NCBI GenBank assembly: GCA_021738725.1
Contig: JAIPBE010000003.1
Location: forward strand, 1 to 64,000
DNA: 64,000 bases
Origin: Saprospiraceae bacterium
GTDB lineage: Bacteria; Bacteroidota; Bacteroidia; Chitinophagales; Saprospiraceae
Direction of reading: 5' to 3'
Shown here: positions 8,647 through 16,192 of the stretch, in pieces
Layout: each line of letters begins with the position of its first letter
Numbering within the stretch: the stretch's first letter is position 1
The notes under the pieces: model-generated
The model's database searches: none
What the model saw: the letters and a program-made list of their open reading frames with translations, nothing else
What the model was told of the DNA's origin: nothing
Translations under genes and position numbers: made by a program

Positions 8647-10464
8647 ATGACCAACGCCGACTACCAGGCCATGCTTCCCACCCTCCCGGACGAACCGGGG
8701 ATCTACAAGTACCTCAGTGAGGACGGGATCATCCTGTATGTTGGCAAGGCGAAGAACCTGAAGAAACGCATCGCTTCCTACTTCGGTGAGAAGAAGCAAC
8801 AGTATTATAAGACCAGGGTCATGATCCGTGCAGCAAACCGGCTGGAGTATACCATCACCGAGTCCGAACACGACGCCCTCCTGTTGGAGAACTCCCTCAT
8901 CAAAAAACACCAACCCCGATATAATGTCAATCTGAAAGACGACAAGAGCTATACCTATATCTGCATCAAAAAGGAACGGTTTCCACGCGTCTTTTTTACC
9001 CGCCGAGTGGTCCGCGACGGGTCTACCTATTTTGGCCCTTACACCTCCAAACACCGGACAGCCATCGTCCTGGATCTGATCAAAAAACTGTTTACACTTC
9101 GGACGTGTACATTCAACCTTTCACAAGAGAATATTGAAGCCGGCAAATTCAAGGTCTGCCTGGAATACCATATTAAAAACTGTCTGGGGCCCTGCGAAGG
9201 ACTTGAAAAAGAAGAGGACTACATGGACAAAGTCGCCCAGATCAAAAACATGCTGTCCGGAAATTTTTCGGAAGTCAAACGACATCTGCAACAGGAGCTG
9301 AACCAGCATGTCGAACGACTCGAATTCGAACTCGCCCACCAGGTTAAGATCAAACTTGAAGCATTTGAAGACTATCAGAGCAAATCTGTTGTCGTCAATC
9401 CTTCCATCCGGGATGTGGATGTATTCTCCATCGCTTCAGACGACAAACACGCGTATGTCAATTATCTCAAAGTCATTAACGGGGCCATTATCAATACCTA
9501 CACCCAGGAAATGATCAAGAATCTGGATGAAGAACCGGAAGACCTCCTGGTTTACGCCATCCAACATCTGCGTGATAAATTTAACAGTATCACATCTGAA
9601 GTCATCGTACCCTTTCCGATCACCTACCTTGAAGAAGAGGTAAGTCTGATTGTCCCTAAAAGAGGAGATAAAAAAAAGCTCCTGGATATGTCCCTGAAAA
9701 ACGTGGACTATTTCCTGCTCCAGAAAAAACAACAGGCCCTTACCAAAACAAATAAAAAAACATCTGCCGAACGCATCCTCACCGCCTTACGTGATGCGCT
9801 TCATATGCAGGAAATGCCACTGCATATCGAGTGTTTTGATAATTCCAACATACAGGGTGCTCACCCCGTTTCTTCCTGTGTTGTATTCAGGAATGCAAAA
9901 CCTGCCAAAGGGGATTACCGGCACTATCATGTCAAATCTGTGGTGGGTCCCAACGATTTTGCCAGCATGGAAGAAGTCGTCTATCGACGATACAAACGTT
10001 TATTGAACGAAGAATCCCCACTCCCCCAACTCATCATCATCGATGGTGGCAAGGGGCAGTTGAGCGCAGCTGTGGAAAGTTTGAAAAAACTGGAGTTGTA
10101 CGGGAAGATCACCATCGTGGGAATCGCCAAACGCCTGGAGGAGATCTATTTTCCAGAAGATCCCCTGCCACTCTATATCAATAAGAAATCAGAGGGATTG
10201 AAACTCATCCAGCAGGCGCGAAATGAAGCCCATCGATTTGCCATCACGTTTCATCGGAATTTACGCTCAAAATCATTTCTCCGATCGGAGCTCACAGAGA
10301 TCCCGGGGGTGGGCGAAAAAACAGCACAAAAATTATTGAAGCATTTTGGATCGGTAAAAAAAATCCTGGCGGCATCGCCCGAACAACGGGCAGAGATCGC
10401 CGGTCCATCTGTTGCCAAAAGCATTGAAATCTATATCAACGGAGAGGTGGCTGAGGAAGAATAA
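8647..10464 (+). CDS. uvrC: Excinuclease ABC subunit C
   Basis: GIYKYLSEDGIILYVGKAKNLKKRI, ECFDNSNIQGAHPVSSCVVF, C-terminal HhH. Confidence 0.98.
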   Translation: MTNADYQAMLPTLPDEPGIYKYLSEDGIILYVGKAKNLKKRIASYFGEKKQQYYKTRVMIRAANRLEYTITESEHDALLLENSLIKKHQPRYNVNLKDDKSYTYICIKKERFPRVFFTRRVVRDGSTYFGPYTSKHRTAIVLDLIKKLFTLRTCTFNLSQENIEAGKFKVCLEYHIKNCLGPCEGLEKEEDYMDKVAQIKNMLSGNFSEVKRHLQQELNQHVERLEFELAHQVKIKLEAFEDYQSKSVVVNPSIRDVDVFSIASDDKHAYVNYLKVINGAIINTYTQEMIKNLDEEPEDLLVYAIQHLRDKFNSITSEVIVPFPITYLEEEVSLIVPKRGDKKKLLDMSLKNVDYFLLQKKQQALTKTNKKTSAERILTALRDALHMQEMPLHIECFDNSNIQGAHPVSSCVVFRNAKPAKGDYRHYHVKSVVGPNDFASMEEVVYRRYKRLLNEESPLPQLIIIDGGKGQLSAAVESLKKLELYGKITIVGIAKRLEEIYFPEDPLPLYINKKSEGLKLIQQARNEAHRFAITFHRNLRSKSFLRSELTEIPGVGEKTAQKLLKHFGSVKKILAASPEQRAEIAGPSVAKSIEIYINGEVAEEE

Positions 10465-10484: not shown

Positions 10485-11207
10485 TCACTCCTCTTCTGGG
10501 TCGATCTCCTTCAATGGCAATTCTTTGAATAATCGACGTTTTGCGCGCTCGTACATATTCTGGTCCAGCACATAAAATCGCAATTCTACCCGATTCTTGT
10601 CCATGACGATATCGATGGGTCGGGTCACAATGACCCAGGGATTTGCGTACATCGCATCTTTGATCCGTTGATAGACCGAATCCAATTCCTGAACGTCCAC
10701 CTCAACAGTCAAGGACATAAACTTGACATCCAGCGTACCCTGTTGCTCTATTCGCACTGCAACATTCATCAGCCGATAGGGCAATAGCACCTTTTCACCT
10801 TTTGCGGTCACCAGGTGGACCGCCTGGTAACCAAATTGTGCCACCCGGCCCTTGGTTTCACCGACGACAATATGATCCCCCACTCGGATGTCGCCACTGA
10901 AGGCATAGGTGATACCCAGAAAAAAGTTGCTCCAAAAATCTCGGAATGCGACAAAAACGATCGCTACAAGGATGGTCGCTACCAGGATGTTGTGACTCAG
11001 CAAAATGTATAATACAATAATGGCAAAAACGGACCAGGTAGAGATCTCCACCTGACGAAACAAATGTTGGGTCCGCACTCCCTGTGGCCGTTGCAACTTT
11101 CCAGGAAGAATAAATCGTCTGTATCCCCGAAAAACAATATAAATAACCAATGCACACAGCAGACTGGTGAACATCACTCGAAATGGCAATCCAAATGATA
11201 CACTCAT
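10485..11207 (-). CDS. MscS-family mechanosensitive ion channel
   Basis: FRDFWSNFFLGITYAFSGDIRVGDHIVVGETKGRVAQFGYQAVHLVTAKGEKVLLPYRLM. Confidence 0.88.
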   Translation of the reverse strand: MSVSFGLPFRVMFTSLLCALVIYIVFRGYRRFILPGKLQRPQGVRTQHLFRQVEISTWSVFAIIVLYILLSHNILVATILVAIVFVAFRDFWSNFFLGITYAFSGDIRVGDHIVVGETKGRVAQFGYQAVHLVTAKGEKVLLPYRLMNVAVRIEQQGTLDVKFMSLTVEVDVQELDSVYQRIKDAMYANPWVIVTRPIDIVMDKNRVELRFYVLDQNMYERAKRRLFKELPLKEIDPEEE

Positions 11208-11216
11208 GATTCTAGA

Positions 11217-11663
11217 TTAGTGGAAAAAGCTTTGCTGTTCGAGCCAGAATTCAATTCCAGGTCTCACAATCGGATTGAGTACAAATCCCTGACTCCCCTC
11301 TTTTTGAATGATTTGGCAACGCTCCAGTTCATAAAGAATACCGTTGATCTTATCCAGATCACCTTCGAATAAATGCGCGATATCCTCCTTGCTCAGATAT
11401 CGACTCAAAACCAATTGATAGATCATCCATTTCCAACCTGAACGAATATTTTGCAGGTCGATTGGAGCAATCCGCCGATCGACGGTGATCTCATGATCTG
11501 TACAGGCCGTTATGGACCGCAACCACAGCTGTAGTGCACGTCCAATATTTCCATGACTCTCTTCGACAGATTGTCGGAGGTGCCGACGGAATGCCAGGGT
11601 ATGATACGGATTGGATTCACCTTTGAACACAAGGTCCATTCCACCGATCTGATGCCGTTCCAT
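11217..11663 (-). CDS. C-terminal piece (wHTH-like) of the upstream ATPase-transporter, separated by an apparent -1 shift or re-initiation
   Basis: ORF opens at TGATG overlapping the upstream stop; frame is open upstream of the ATG as LDRIL-MERHQIGGMDLVFKG. Confidence 0.6.
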   Translation of the reverse strand: MERHQIGGMDLVFKGESNPYHTLAFRRHLRQSVEESHGNIGRALQLWLRSITACTDHEITVDRRIAPIDLQNIRSGWKWMIYQLVLSRYLSKEDIAHLFEGDLDKINGILYELERCQIIQKEGSQGFVLNPIVRPGIEFWLEQQSFFH

Positions 11664-14600
11664 CAGAATACGATCAAGGATTCATCAGCCATGGGTGTCA
11701 GAAGGATCGTAGAGGTGATCACCCTTCCTATCTGGCGGTGCTCCCGCAAGGCAGCCAGGGCAAAGAGGTTTACATTCAGAATAAAGAAGTGTTTCTTTTG
11801 ATACTTCTCAATCAGATCCATCAATTGACCGAGCGCATCCTCCGAAGAAGTTCGACTCCACCAGATCTCCAGATCATGGACCAGTATAACAGAATGGGCG
11901 GGCAGTTGATCTAGACACTCTTCCGGACTCCCCTTCAGGTTTTGTGAGCCGCTGATCAATCGCTTCAATTCCGGAAGACGGCCCTGTCTGCCCGACAATT
12001 CCAGCAGTTCATTGTTCTTGGAGATGAGTTGTTGTGCTACGTACTTGCTGAAATGCGTTTTTCCAGAACCACTTTTTCCTGCGATCAACAGGGCCCCACG
12101 GCTCTTTTCATTTTTCCATAGCTCGAACTCACGGAGTTCCCGATCTCGTCCTGTGTATTCATTCTGTACGGGCAAATGTTTACCAAGAAAAAGTTGTTTA
12201 TAATAGAAAGGCAGCTTGTTGAGGATCTTCTTTTGTGGCAATAGATCCTGGACATATAAAAAGCCCTTTTCCAGATCGGTCTTGTGCTCATACACGGTGA
12301 GAAATTCGGAAACATCAGATTCATGTCGCTTTGCATGAAAGACCCGGGTCAGGTCTTTCATCCCCTTCCGAAGGGAGGCGCGCACACGATTTACCAGGAT
12401 CTGAAGTCCGGCTTTTCGCTTGGATATCGTGATAAAACGATCCCAATTTTCGGCATGTTCCACCAGATATCGACTATCCATCTCCAAATGGAGTTCATAA
12501 AGGATGCTCCGAATGCCCTCCTCCAGTCGGGCTACTTTTAATTGGAATTCTTCCAACTCGATCTGGTTCCGCTCCTTCATTGTCTGAAACAGCTTCCGGA
12601 TCTCCTTCCTCGTAATTTTGGAAGCTTTTTCCTCCGCCAGAGTCGATCTCAACAAAATGACCCGATTCGATTGCAGATCCTGGAGGGAGGACACTTCTTG
12701 CAAATAGCGTTCGACCAGTCGTCTTACAGGTTCATATAACTTCGTCTCCAGAATAAAATCCAGGATCCGAGGCATATCCAAAGTGATCGGTGATGCACCC
12801 TCCAATTGATTCCCTTGGAAATCCTCAAAAAGTATAGGATTCAATACCGAAGTATCCCCATGTAATAAAGGTTGAATAGCACTGGTGACGCCATTCAATT
12901 CTGACATGAACACATTGACATCCCACAGGGGCCCCTCAGAAGATAGACCTGTCTCAAAGCCACTGAGGTCCATCGTCTCTGCGCCCGCCTCAGACAATTG
13001 GGATAAGTCACGATGATGCTGATGCAATTGCTCTGAAACCCTTGCATTCACTTCTGCTTGCAGCCGCGCCAACATCAATTCCAGTTGCTGACCGATCTTC
13101 AGATTCGTACGGGCGAGGGTCAGATTCAATTCACACGTGGAATGTAAGACGTGTTGGTTCTCACCCCACAGTTGAGGAAATTGCGCCAGGTACTGGCCTT
13201 CGGCCCGGACTCTTCGAGTATCCAGATTGGATCGGATCTGACGCAGCTCTGCAACCGGATCAGACGATTGACAATTCAGAAGTATATCATTGGTCAATTG
13301 ACGTATTGCCCGTTGACATTCATCGCGAAGATGACTTTTCAATCCCTCGAAATAAGCCGTATGATCCCGCCATAATTGAACGATCTCGGTTCTTGTCTGC
13401 TCAGCAATTTCAGCTGAATATCGCTCCTCTGCTGAAAAGCTTTCACACTGAAACAAATGATAGATCTTCGATATGGTATCACTGGTACTTTTAGATATGT
13501 GGACATAACAGCCATTTCCAAAATCGCGATATGCTTTCAAGATCATGGGCACAAGCGTGCGCTGCATTTGCACATCCCCTAATAATCGAAATGGTATTCG
13601 CACCTGTACGCCCTCCACCGAATAGCGAACACGTTTAGGAAGCGCACTCAACACTGTATTCATTTCCTCCATGCACAACTGGTTGTGCTCCGTTAACAAT
13701 TCTACCAGTATATGTAGATCGCCCATTCGGAATTTCTCCAAATGTTGCTCCAGCTTTTGCAGTAATTCTTCATAAGAGGCCATGACCTCCTGAACATCGG
13801 ATCCAGTGGAAGCCTTCTCTTCCCACTCCTGAAGAACAACTTGAAACAATCCCAGATATTTATCCTGGATCGGACCAAACGCCTCCTCCGTAAAACGATC
13901 GCTGATAACACTCAAGTCCGTATCCAGCTGGACCAAGCGTTCGCGCAAGTGCTGGTCGTCAAATTCGACCATTTCAGGAACGGACGTTTGCCCCTCATCC
14001 TGGACCTCTACCTGCTTAGACTGGGGAGACAAAAAAGCGATTTCTTTGAATTGGGAAGAAGCCTTCACCAGCAATGTTGTACCGATCGTCCGAACCAGAT
14101 CGTTCGTATGACTGACAAACGTTCCTGCTTCCTCCAGTTGCACTTCCGGAATACCGACCAATACCAGGTCGGTATCAGAAGAATAGATCTTCATCAGTTC
14201 ATACAACGCCCGATTGTCGGTCGCATTTCCGATCACTTTGATCGATGCGCTCACCCGCTGTTCCTCGAGGATGTGCCTGATCTTTTTCCCTATTATTTTA
14301 ATATTGCTATTAGTATCATCGACGAGTAAAATGCGAATCTGTGCACTCCTCCACAACTCTGAAGCTACCAGAAACTTGGAGATATTCAACATCAATTCGG
14401 CATTGCTGTCTACCCCCCTCCACCAGAGGTCGATCTGGGCATATTCGCGGAATCCGAAACGGTCATCATAGTCCAGATAGAGCACATTGTAATCCAGATC
14501 CATCAATTTCTGCGTCATCTGCGCAAACCAGACCGGATCTGCAGTATTTTTCGCCCAACCCATCAAAATGGTGTTTGGCTCGATCCCCGAAAACCCAAAG

Positions 14601-16192
14601 GTGGAGGCAATTGATTCGATCCCCTTGAAAATATTCTTGACCTCCAACCGACGGCCAAAAACGCCATATTTCTTCAGCACCTCATCATTGACACTCTGTT
14701 GATTCTTGGGGAATAATAGCGTGGCCTCCTGGTTTTCATAAAGGTCAAAATTGGTCACGATACCCCGATGTCCCACCAGTTCTTTGCTGAATTCCAACAG
14801 ATGAGGACGGTGGGTTGTCCCTCCACTGAATAAGAGCACATTCGGCTTCCAGTTGCGTTGAGAATCCTGCTTGTCATCCATTCGCCGTAATCCGGTCTTC
14901 ACTACAGATGACCAGACACTCCCCCACACATCTCCGGAGCCCAGCGCCAGTTGTTTTTTCGCCAACCAGAAATAGATCCCACCGATCACCACAAATGCCG
15001 CAACCATGGCCAGCATATCCAGCCGGAACATTACGACGAACGTCGCAATAAATCCAGCCAGCCCTACCCATTTCTTGGCCTTGAAGGAAGGATTGAAATC
15101 CGAACTCGCCCAGCTCTCCAGAAAGAAGGACAGGTTGATAAAGCCGTAGGCAGTCAGATAAAACATAGAACAGATCCTGGCGATCGTATCCAGTTCGCCG
15201 ATCAGAATACCCGCCTCTGCGATCAGAACGGTGAAGATCAGCGCGTTGCGGGGGTCGTTCCCTTTGCCGACTCCTTTCGCGAAAAATTTAGGGGTGATCT
15301 TATCCACAGACATCGCCTGCAGAATGCGAGGGCCTCCCAAAATACCGCCCAGCGCCGAAGACAGCGTCGCGCCCCAAATACCGGCTACCACAGCCGGTGC
15401 GAACAGAGCCAATTTGAGCAGGATATTATTATCCGTCCGTAATAACTCCTGGTCGACCGAATAAAAAATAAAGACCGCCAGACCCAAATACACGGCAAAG
15501 CCGACGGCGATGGCCCATAAAGTGCCCATGGGTATGGCCTTCTTGGGGTCCTTCAGATCCCCCGACATGGCGATCCCCGCAGTGAATCCGGTCACGGCCG
15601 GGAAAAAGACGGCAAAGACGGTCTCCATGGAGACACTCCCCTCTCCGGGGACAAAAGATAACGTCTCCGGAACACCGGGCGATACACCAAAAAAGATAGA
15701 AATCAGGGACAGAGCGATCGCTGCCATGATGAAAAACTGCGTCTTCAGGGCAAACGAAGTACTGATCAGTGCAATGATGGTCATGACCAACAAGGCCAGA
15801 GAACCACCCAGTCGCAAGCCGTTGATCCCGGCATCCAGCCCTAAATAGGGATTGAAACTCTCGGCAAAACCGATCAGATATAGAGCTATACTCAACGCAG
15901 TACCAGTGAACAGCGTCATGCCGATCGCCCCTCCAATGGGCAATCCCAGGCTCCGGGAAAGGACGTAATAGACACCCCCTGCACCGACCTTCTTATCTGT
16001 TGCGATAGACGAGATGCTCAGTCCCGTCGTAATAGAGATCACATGGGCGATCAGAATGATCATGATGGTTCCCACCAATCCGGCGTTCCCCACGACCCAC
16101 CCGAGTCGCATATACATGATCACCCCCAGGATAGTCAGCAACGAAGGTGTGAAGACACCTGCAAACGCACCAAATTTTTTCTGATTGGACAT
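11663..16192 (-). CDS. SLC12/cation-chloride-cotransporter-like APC permease fused to coiled-coil region and P-loop ATPase
   Basis: N-term GVFTPSLLTILGVIMYMRLGWVVGNAGL (CCC family); SLC12-like cytoplasmic domain; late GKSGSGKT Walker A at 12056-12079 and VILVHDLEIWW Walker B-like. Confidence 0.88.
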   Translation of the reverse strand: MSNQKKFGAFAGVFTPSLLTILGVIMYMRLGWVVGNAGLVGTIMIILIAHVISITTGLSISSIATDKKVGAGGVYYVLSRSLGLPIGGAIGMTLFTGTALSIALYLIGFAESFNPYLGLDAGINGLRLGGSLALLVMTIIALISTSFALKTQFFIMAAIALSLISIFFGVSPGVPETLSFVPGEGSVSMETVFAVFFPAVTGFTAGIAMSGDLKDPKKAIPMGTLWAIAVGFAVYLGLAVFIFYSVDQELLRTDNNILLKLALFAPAVVAGIWGATLSSALGGILGGPRILQAMSVDKITPKFFAKGVGKGNDPRNALIFTVLIAEAGILIGELDTIARICSMFYLTAYGFINLSFFLESWASSDFNPSFKAKKWVGLAGFIATFVVMFRLDMLAMVAAFVVIGGIYFWLAKKQLALGSGDVWGSVWSSVVKTGLRRMDDKQDSQRNWKPNVLLFSGGTTHRPHLLEFSKELVGHRGIVTNFDLYENQEATLLFPKNQQSVNDEVLKKYGVFGRRLEVKNIFKGIESIASTFGFSGIEPNTILMGWAKNTADPVWFAQMTQKLMDLDYNVLYLDYDDRFGFREYAQIDLWWRGVDSNAELMLNISKFLVASELWRSAQIRILLVDDTNSNIKIIGKKIRHILEEQRVSASIKVIGNATDNRALYELMKIYSSDTDLVLVGIPEVQLEEAGTFVSHTNDLVRTIGTTLLVKASSQFKEIAFLSPQSKQVEVQDEGQTSVPEMVEFDDQHLRERLVQLDTDLSVISDRFTEEAFGPIQDKYLGLFQVVLQEWEEKASTGSDVQEVMASYEELLQKLEQHLEKFRMGDLHILVELLTEHNQLCMEEMNTVLSALPKRVRYSVEGVQVRIPFRLLGDVQMQRTLVPMILKAYRDFGNGCYVHISKSTSDTISKIYHLFQCESFSAEERYSAEIAEQTRTEIVQLWRDHTAYFEGLKSHLRDECQRAIRQLTNDILLNCQSSDPVAELRQIRSNLDTRRVRAEGQYLAQFPQLWGENQHVLHSTCELNLTLARTNLKIGQQLELMLARLQAEVNARVSEQLHQHHRDLSQLSEAGAETMDLSGFETGLSSEGPLWDVNVFMSELNGVTSAIQPLLHGDTSVLNPILFEDFQGNQLEGASPITLDMPRILDFILETKLYEPVRRLVERYLQEVSSLQDLQSNRVILLRSTLAEEKASKITRKEIRKLFQTMKERNQIELEEFQLKVARLEEGIRSILYELHLEMDSRYLVEHAENWDRFITISKRKAGLQILVNRVRASLRKGMKDLTRVFHAKRHESDVSEFLTVYEHKTDLEKGFLYVQDLLPQKKILNKLPFYYKQLFLGKHLPVQNEYTGRDRELREFELWKNEKSRGALLIAGKSGSGKTHFSKYVAQQLISKNNELLELSGRQGRLPELKRLISGSQNLKGSPEECLDQLPAHSVILVHDLEIWWSRTSSEDALGQLMDLIEKYQKKHFFILNVNLFALAALREHRQIGRVITSTILLTPMADESLIVF

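Follow-up and report, generated by a model that had tools for sequence, protein, structure and literature searches.

The 64,000-nucleotide window, the whole stretch of DNA analysed here, encodes a cation-chloride cotransporter (CCC) that is fused in a single reading frame to long helices and a P-loop NTPase core, and that is directly followed by a gene of the MscS family. The fusion is conserved, the ATPase is paired with an MscS relative in its homologs, and the carrier associated with this pair is exchanged. On balance, we lean towards a locus in which an NKCC-like cotransporter is combined with a regulatory module that works with the downstream MscS-family protein, the carrier itself being swappable.

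The source genome (Bacteroidota) has a size of 4.18 Mb. The locus contains the following features:

16192..11663, minus strand, ORF of 1509 aa with CCC permease, cytoplasmic domain, helices and P-loop NTPase core
14960..16156, minus strand, transmembrane permease domain, aa 13–411 (SLC12/CCC, LeuT-fold class; Pfam, NCBIfam)
14033..14872, minus strand, SLC12-like cytoplasmic domain, aa ~441–720 (weak Pfam match, PDB matches)
12323..14032, minus strand, long helical region, aa ~721–1290 (~570 aa; AF2 model of the L008 homolog)
11666..12322, minus strand, P-loop NTPase core, aa ~1291–1509 (weak Pfam matches, AF2, Foldseek)
12079..12056, minus strand, Walker A motif GKSGSGKT (sequence)
11890..11858, minus strand, Walker B motif VILVHDLEIWW (sequence)
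11663..11217, minus strand, 148-aa ORF corresponding to lid and winged helix (homolog frames; profile match, 3.3e-35)
11207..10485, minus strand, MscS-family gene, 240 aa, with a divergent pore helix (Pfam, AF2, Foldseek)

Both ORFs of the fusion are present as in the initial annotation, Walker A lies exactly where it had been placed, and Walker B has the annotated sequence. The adjoining MscS-family gene and the family-wide pattern had been overlooked.

The first ~440 residues of the 1509-aa ORF match AA_permease (Pfam, 1.3e-47), and the K-Cl cotransporter family TIGR00930 spans both halves of the CCC part (NCBIfam, 9.5e-110), with a score below its curated full-length cut-off of 953 bits. 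The top PDB matches of the CCC part are NKCC1 and KCC4 (E ~1e-70), with NKCC1 being the nearest solved structure. The cytoplasmic domain has a weak Pfam SLC12 match (21.9 bits, below the cut-off of 27), and SLC12 matches in the PDB reach residues 578–660, well into this domain. These matches bear out the CCC permease and SLC12-like cytoplasmic domain of the initial annotation and, at the level of sequence, identify the N-terminal half of the ORF as an SLC12/CCC cotransporter with its cytoplasmic domain. The latter is 92% identical to that of L008 and 38–59% identical to those of more distant fusions.

The ion-binding sites were compared by alignment with human NKCC1, whose Na+, K+ and Cl- site residues were taken from PMC7889885. 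Equivalent residues are present at the K+ site (Y105=Y383, P198/T201=P496/T499), the Na+ site (A275/S278/S279=A610/S613/S614) and the tyrosine of the second Cl- site (Y349=Y686). Y105, P198, T201, S278, S279 and Y349 are common to 10/10 fused proteins (the window protein and nine relatives), and A275 and the gate pair R29/E111 are kept in the window protein and in 9/9 fused relatives examined. Since these ion-site and gate residues are conserved, an NKCC-like Na-K-Cl transport mode is our best guess for the fused carrier.

Many homologs keep permease and ATPase together in the domain order that the initial annotation had proposed. The whole arrangement is found in one polypeptide among homologs at 36–80% identity, and at least nine independent contigs from several families encode the same order in one frame; the fusion is therefore not due to chance. 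All CCC-fused ATPases fall into one clade (support 89/81) of a tree built from 38 ATPase cores, and in 85% of the bootstrap trees they arise only once, which indicates an old and retained fusion. Thus, the CCC-ATPase fusion is real and old. L008 and the Ww120 genome share the neighbouring genes, in the order sprA, locus, uvrC, obg and beyond, which fits a stably maintained chromosomal locus. The uvrC gene adjoins the CCC-type locus (window 8647–10464) and elsewhere lies ~3 kb from a CPA-type operon (L019:1-880), which may reflect either a shared site or coincidence. Stand-alone CCC genes (L052:8042-10237 and L053:7729-9921), which are ~60% identical to the window permease, have no ATPase or MscS neighbours; these possibly represent loss of the module or the state before fusion.

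A single ORF of 1,639–1,703 aa runs from the permease through the helices and the ATPase to the equivalent of the 148-aa ORF in L008, L011, L013–L015, L017 (from Lewinella cohaerens) and L055–L057. L012 and L009 are truncated by contig ends and otherwise agree with this one-frame arrangement. A frame break at the junction is seen in the window copy and in no other homolog: relative to L008 (80% identical), a one-base deletion results in a stop and a TGATG stop/start overlap. The 148-aa ORF was rejected as an independent gene, as it is the C-terminal end of one protein in all intact homologs, and a programmed frameshift at the GATCGTATTCTGATGG junction was rejected because it has no recognisable slippery site and the relatives are all in one frame. 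The dN between the window and L008 is 0.186 for the displaced C-terminus and 0.185 for the ATPase core, and there are no further stops. Three explanations would therefore fit: a recent change at the junction, an error of assembly, or a break tolerated by means of coupled translation, which the TGATG overlap could allow for the 148-aa ORF. The deletion might also mark the window copy as a decaying gene, in which separation of the lid and winged helix has left an ordinary transporter that carries a functionless tail. Its restriction to this copy would fit, but decay is improbable given the equal dN values and the otherwise open downstream frame, and the break may be an assembly error or be bridged by coupled translation. 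Moreover, decay of this copy would have no bearing on the intact homologs.

A profile built from CCC-fused and operon-type modules only (A2; pair-type and CPA2-fused loci were left out) matched the module with E < 1e-20 in 68/396 sampled Bacteroidota genomes, the range of the search, and 20 further loci were inspected. Four architectures were found. The first is the CCC-module fusion followed by MscS. The second consists of a module of ~750–805 aa, MscS and an Na_H_Exchanger carrier for Na+/H+ or K+/H+ exchange (L018–L022, L070, L071, L064). In the third, a CPA2 Na_H_Exchanger carrier is fused to the module (~1,500 aa) and is accompanied by MscS, TrkH (2.9e-59), TrkA (6.6e-25) and a protein with 7–12 TM segments (L077–L081; L082 is similar). 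The fourth consists of a module of ~1,000 aa and MscS alone, with no adjacent carrier. The source genome itself contains a second module copy on the same contig (L064:5379-9847, at ~127–132 kb, outside the window), where an ATPase of 805 aa, an MscS-like protein of 252 aa and an Na_H_Exchanger of 430 aa form one operon. The carriers in the scanned loci are supported by Pfam, one being nearest to K+/H+ antiporters (NCBIfam, below cut-off), and all partner carriers found are monovalent-cation (K+/Na+) carriers. In the tree, the CPA-operon ATPases form a separate clade (100/99), and the pair and CPA2 types cluster together; L083, labelled there as CPA2-fused, has an ORF without TM segments (a GC-rich, over-extended frame) and is best counted with the pair type.

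The L077–L081 loci represent a complete K+ transport cluster around the same ATPase. The carrier-free pair is widespread (L072–L076, L084–L089), with an ATPase of ~930–1,100 aa and a degenerate Walker B. Two of these loci contain shortened ATPase ORFs before MscS (L074:6037-6933 and L075:7349-8245; 298 aa from the first start) without Walker A in the listed frame, possibly as a result of decay or frameshift.

The ATPase region has weak Pfam matches to NPHP3_N, AAA_16 and AAA, all below gathering cut-offs, and sequence-profile comparison with known ATPases gave weak matches throughout. An AF2 model of the L008 homolog (aa 701–1658; pLDDT 78.9, pTM 0.52, indicating moderate global confidence) displays long helices (47–365 and 393–600 of the modelled fragment), a P-loop α/β core and a terminal winged helix. 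The top Foldseek matches of this model are RuvB, Orc2 and Cdc6/Orc1 (E ~6e-7 to 1e-6, probability 1.00), with modest TM-scores, and Apaf-1 is found lower in the list. The predicted fold matches an Orc/Cdc6/RuvB-type AAA+ (AAA+/STAND-like) domain plus winged helix, in agreement with the C-terminal P-loop NTPase that had been assigned after the helices from motifs.

The P-loop (GKSGSGKT in the window) is kept in almost all family copies, with a few GR[ST] variants. Walker B in the CCC clade is mostly HDLE, NDLE or DDLE (HDLE in the window), with an invariant Asp and a conserved Glu (DLExWW), and is DDLE in the CPA-operon type. Most pair and CPA2 types have E-N, E-G or E-S in place of D-D/E, and ATP hydrolysis may have been lost in these branches since the acid pair is incomplete. 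In profile A2, no invariant Arg is found at AAA+ arginine finger or sensor-2 positions, and a GN[IV]GxAL motif is present without the sensor-2 Arg. The degeneration of Walker B in some branches speaks for a nucleotide switch rather than for an ATP-driven pump, and a regulatory switch fits the module better than a motor. A hybrid primary/secondary pump, in which ATP hydrolysis energises transport, would make use of the intact Walker A and the conserved Walker B acids of the CCC clade. We nevertheless give it hardly any credence: all NKCC1 ion-coupling residues are kept, so that the carrier is already Na+-energised, the fold is that of Orc/RuvB/STAND switches rather than of ABC or P-type pumps, and the sister branches have a degenerate Walker B. 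An ABC-type or pump assignment was rejected, as neither Pfam nor Foldseek returned such a domain or fold.

The helical arm of the CCC fusion displays weak profile similarity to the N-terminal helices of pair-type ATPases (hhalign prob 86, E 5e-6), and its homology to the CPA-operon arm is not clear (hhalign prob 20). It is the fastest evolving region, with 65% identity to L008 versus 94% for the membrane part.

The MscS-family gene lies directly after the ATPase module in the window. Its product matches MS_channel_2nd (Pfam, 1.7e-7, above cut-off), and its AF2 model matches MSL1, MscK and MscS (Foldseek, E 4e-11). The Gly/Ala-packed pore helix TM3 is replaced in carrier-linked members, including that of the window, and a canonical VGFAAQDILKNIFGG-like pore helix is kept in pair-type homologs (L072/L085); judging from this helix, the carrier-linked subunit may not sense tension. 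An MscS gene is found within two ORFs of the module in 35/37 loci (leave-one-out profiles), compared to 0/7 for stand-alone CCC loci. The presence of MscS is thus tied to the ATPase rather than to the carrier, and an association of CCC with MscS in the absence of the ATPase was rejected on the same count. The two exceptions are L071, with a short divergent ORF in the MscS position, and L083, which is GC-rich and where ORFs are poorly called. As the source genome contains only 6 MscS matches, chance adjacency would be expected at ~0.3% per locus. Additionally, the MscS gene is upstream rather than downstream of the module in L088 and L089, so that the link to the ATPase has outlived rearrangement. 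The constant evolutionary unit is the ATPase+MscS pair, with an exchangeable carrier. Conserved adjacency can, however, mean co-expression rather than contact.

The pair could instead form an envelope or osmotic-stress complex of its own, with the carriers as co-regulated cargo and the fusion serving dosage or localisation rather than gating. The many genomes in which the pair occurs without a carrier and with a canonical MscS pore helix, and the grouping of the pair and CPA2 types in the tree, are in line with such a complex. We consider it rather unlikely, since two separate fusions of the ATPase, to CCC and to CPA2, point to a direct physical link with different carriers, and every carrier found belongs to K+/Na+ homeostasis. 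That the module is an anti-phage or cell-death effector, made of a STAND protein and a pore protein, which has taken up a carrier is very unlikely. MscS-type pores are effectors in some conflict systems, and the ATPase has STAND-like features; against this stand the broad chromosomal spread in the phylum and the housekeeping synteny (sprA, locus, uvrC, obg) shared with relatives. PADLOC matches to known defence proteins were limited to weak generic AAA (best 2.6e-5), and a defence system was rejected on this result together with the synteny.

The genetics of the module is well supported; the mechanism we infer. In our preferred reading of a regulated NKCC-like cotransporter, the fused module would comprise the long helical arm, the AAA+/STAND-like nucleotide-binding domain and the winged helix, and the MscS-like subunit would sense membrane tension or ionic state, or serve as a membrane scaffold. 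The nucleotide state of the ATPase would report or relay the MscS-like signal via the arm, and the relayed signal would switch the attached carrier on or off. Cytoplasmic K+/Na+ (and Cl-), and with them turgor, would thereby be controlled, the module being attached to whichever monovalent-cation carrier a lineage uses. The sensing of nucleotide and tension is deduced from the domain identities; that nucleotide is bound in vivo and that the MscS relative acts as a sensor is presumed, as are physical contact and the sign of control. The initial annotation had suggested ATP- or stress-gated control of ion flux, a conjecture that is strengthened because the ATPase+MscS pair is also joined to two other kinds of monovalent-cation carrier.

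More tentatively, Bacteroidota may possess a general, swappable controller of volume and ion homeostasis, made of an AAA+/STAND-like NTPase and an MscS relative turned from channel to sensor, and shared by three or more types of carrier (NKCC-like cotransporters, CPA1-type exchangers and Trk-linked CPA2). NKCC and KCC proteins set cell volume in animals, where CCCs are controlled by WNK/SPAK phosphorylation, and flux control by their cytoplasmic part is still debated. Such a controller would be a bacterial functional counterpart of this kinase control. The coupling of nucleotide state and membrane tension to ion transport could be studied in compact form in an NKCC-like protein of bacteria that has its own nucleotide switch and an MscS partner. 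These data also suggest that K+/Na+ balance in a large phylum involves a previously undescribed regulator, and MscS relatives may act as subunits of transporter complexes.

Prokaryotic CCCs, MscS, CPA, Trk and AAA+ proteins are each already known; neither the fusion nor the ATPase+MscS module was found described in the open-licence papers searched, which gave background on prokaryotic CCCs and general work on STAND NTPases. The window protein shares its permease core, cytoplasmic domain and Na+/K+/Cl- sites with SLC12 CCCs such as NKCC1 and KCC4, but to our knowledge known members stop after the cytoplasmic domain and contain no P-loop ATPase. A prokaryotic CCC is that of Methanosarcina acetivorans (Warmuth et al. 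2009, as cited in PMC4230888). There is a precedent for nucleotide control of a CCC, since ATP is bound by animal KCC1 and adenine nucleotides stabilise other CCCs (PMC8280820), although the ATP site of KCC1 lies in the cytoplasmic domain of the carrier itself rather than in a fused NTPase. The P-loop core, lid and C-terminal winged helix of Orc1/Cdc6, RuvB and Apaf-1 are also present in the module model, and part of the family has a similar D-D-like Walker B. Unlike these proteins, the module falls below Pfam cut-offs, is fused to or in an operon with carriers, and has no DNA or effector domain. The partner has the predicted beta domain and C-terminal alpha/beta domain of MscS and MscK, but differs in its length of 240 aa, its divergent pore helix and its near-constant ATPase neighbour. 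K+ carriers under the control of a cytoplasmic nucleotide-binding module are also known from Trk/Ktr (RCK subunits) and Kef (KTN domains), and the combination of carrier and module is the same here. However, RCK and KTN are Rossmann domains, whereas the ATPase of the module described here is AAA+/STAND-like and comes with a helical arm and an MscS partner.
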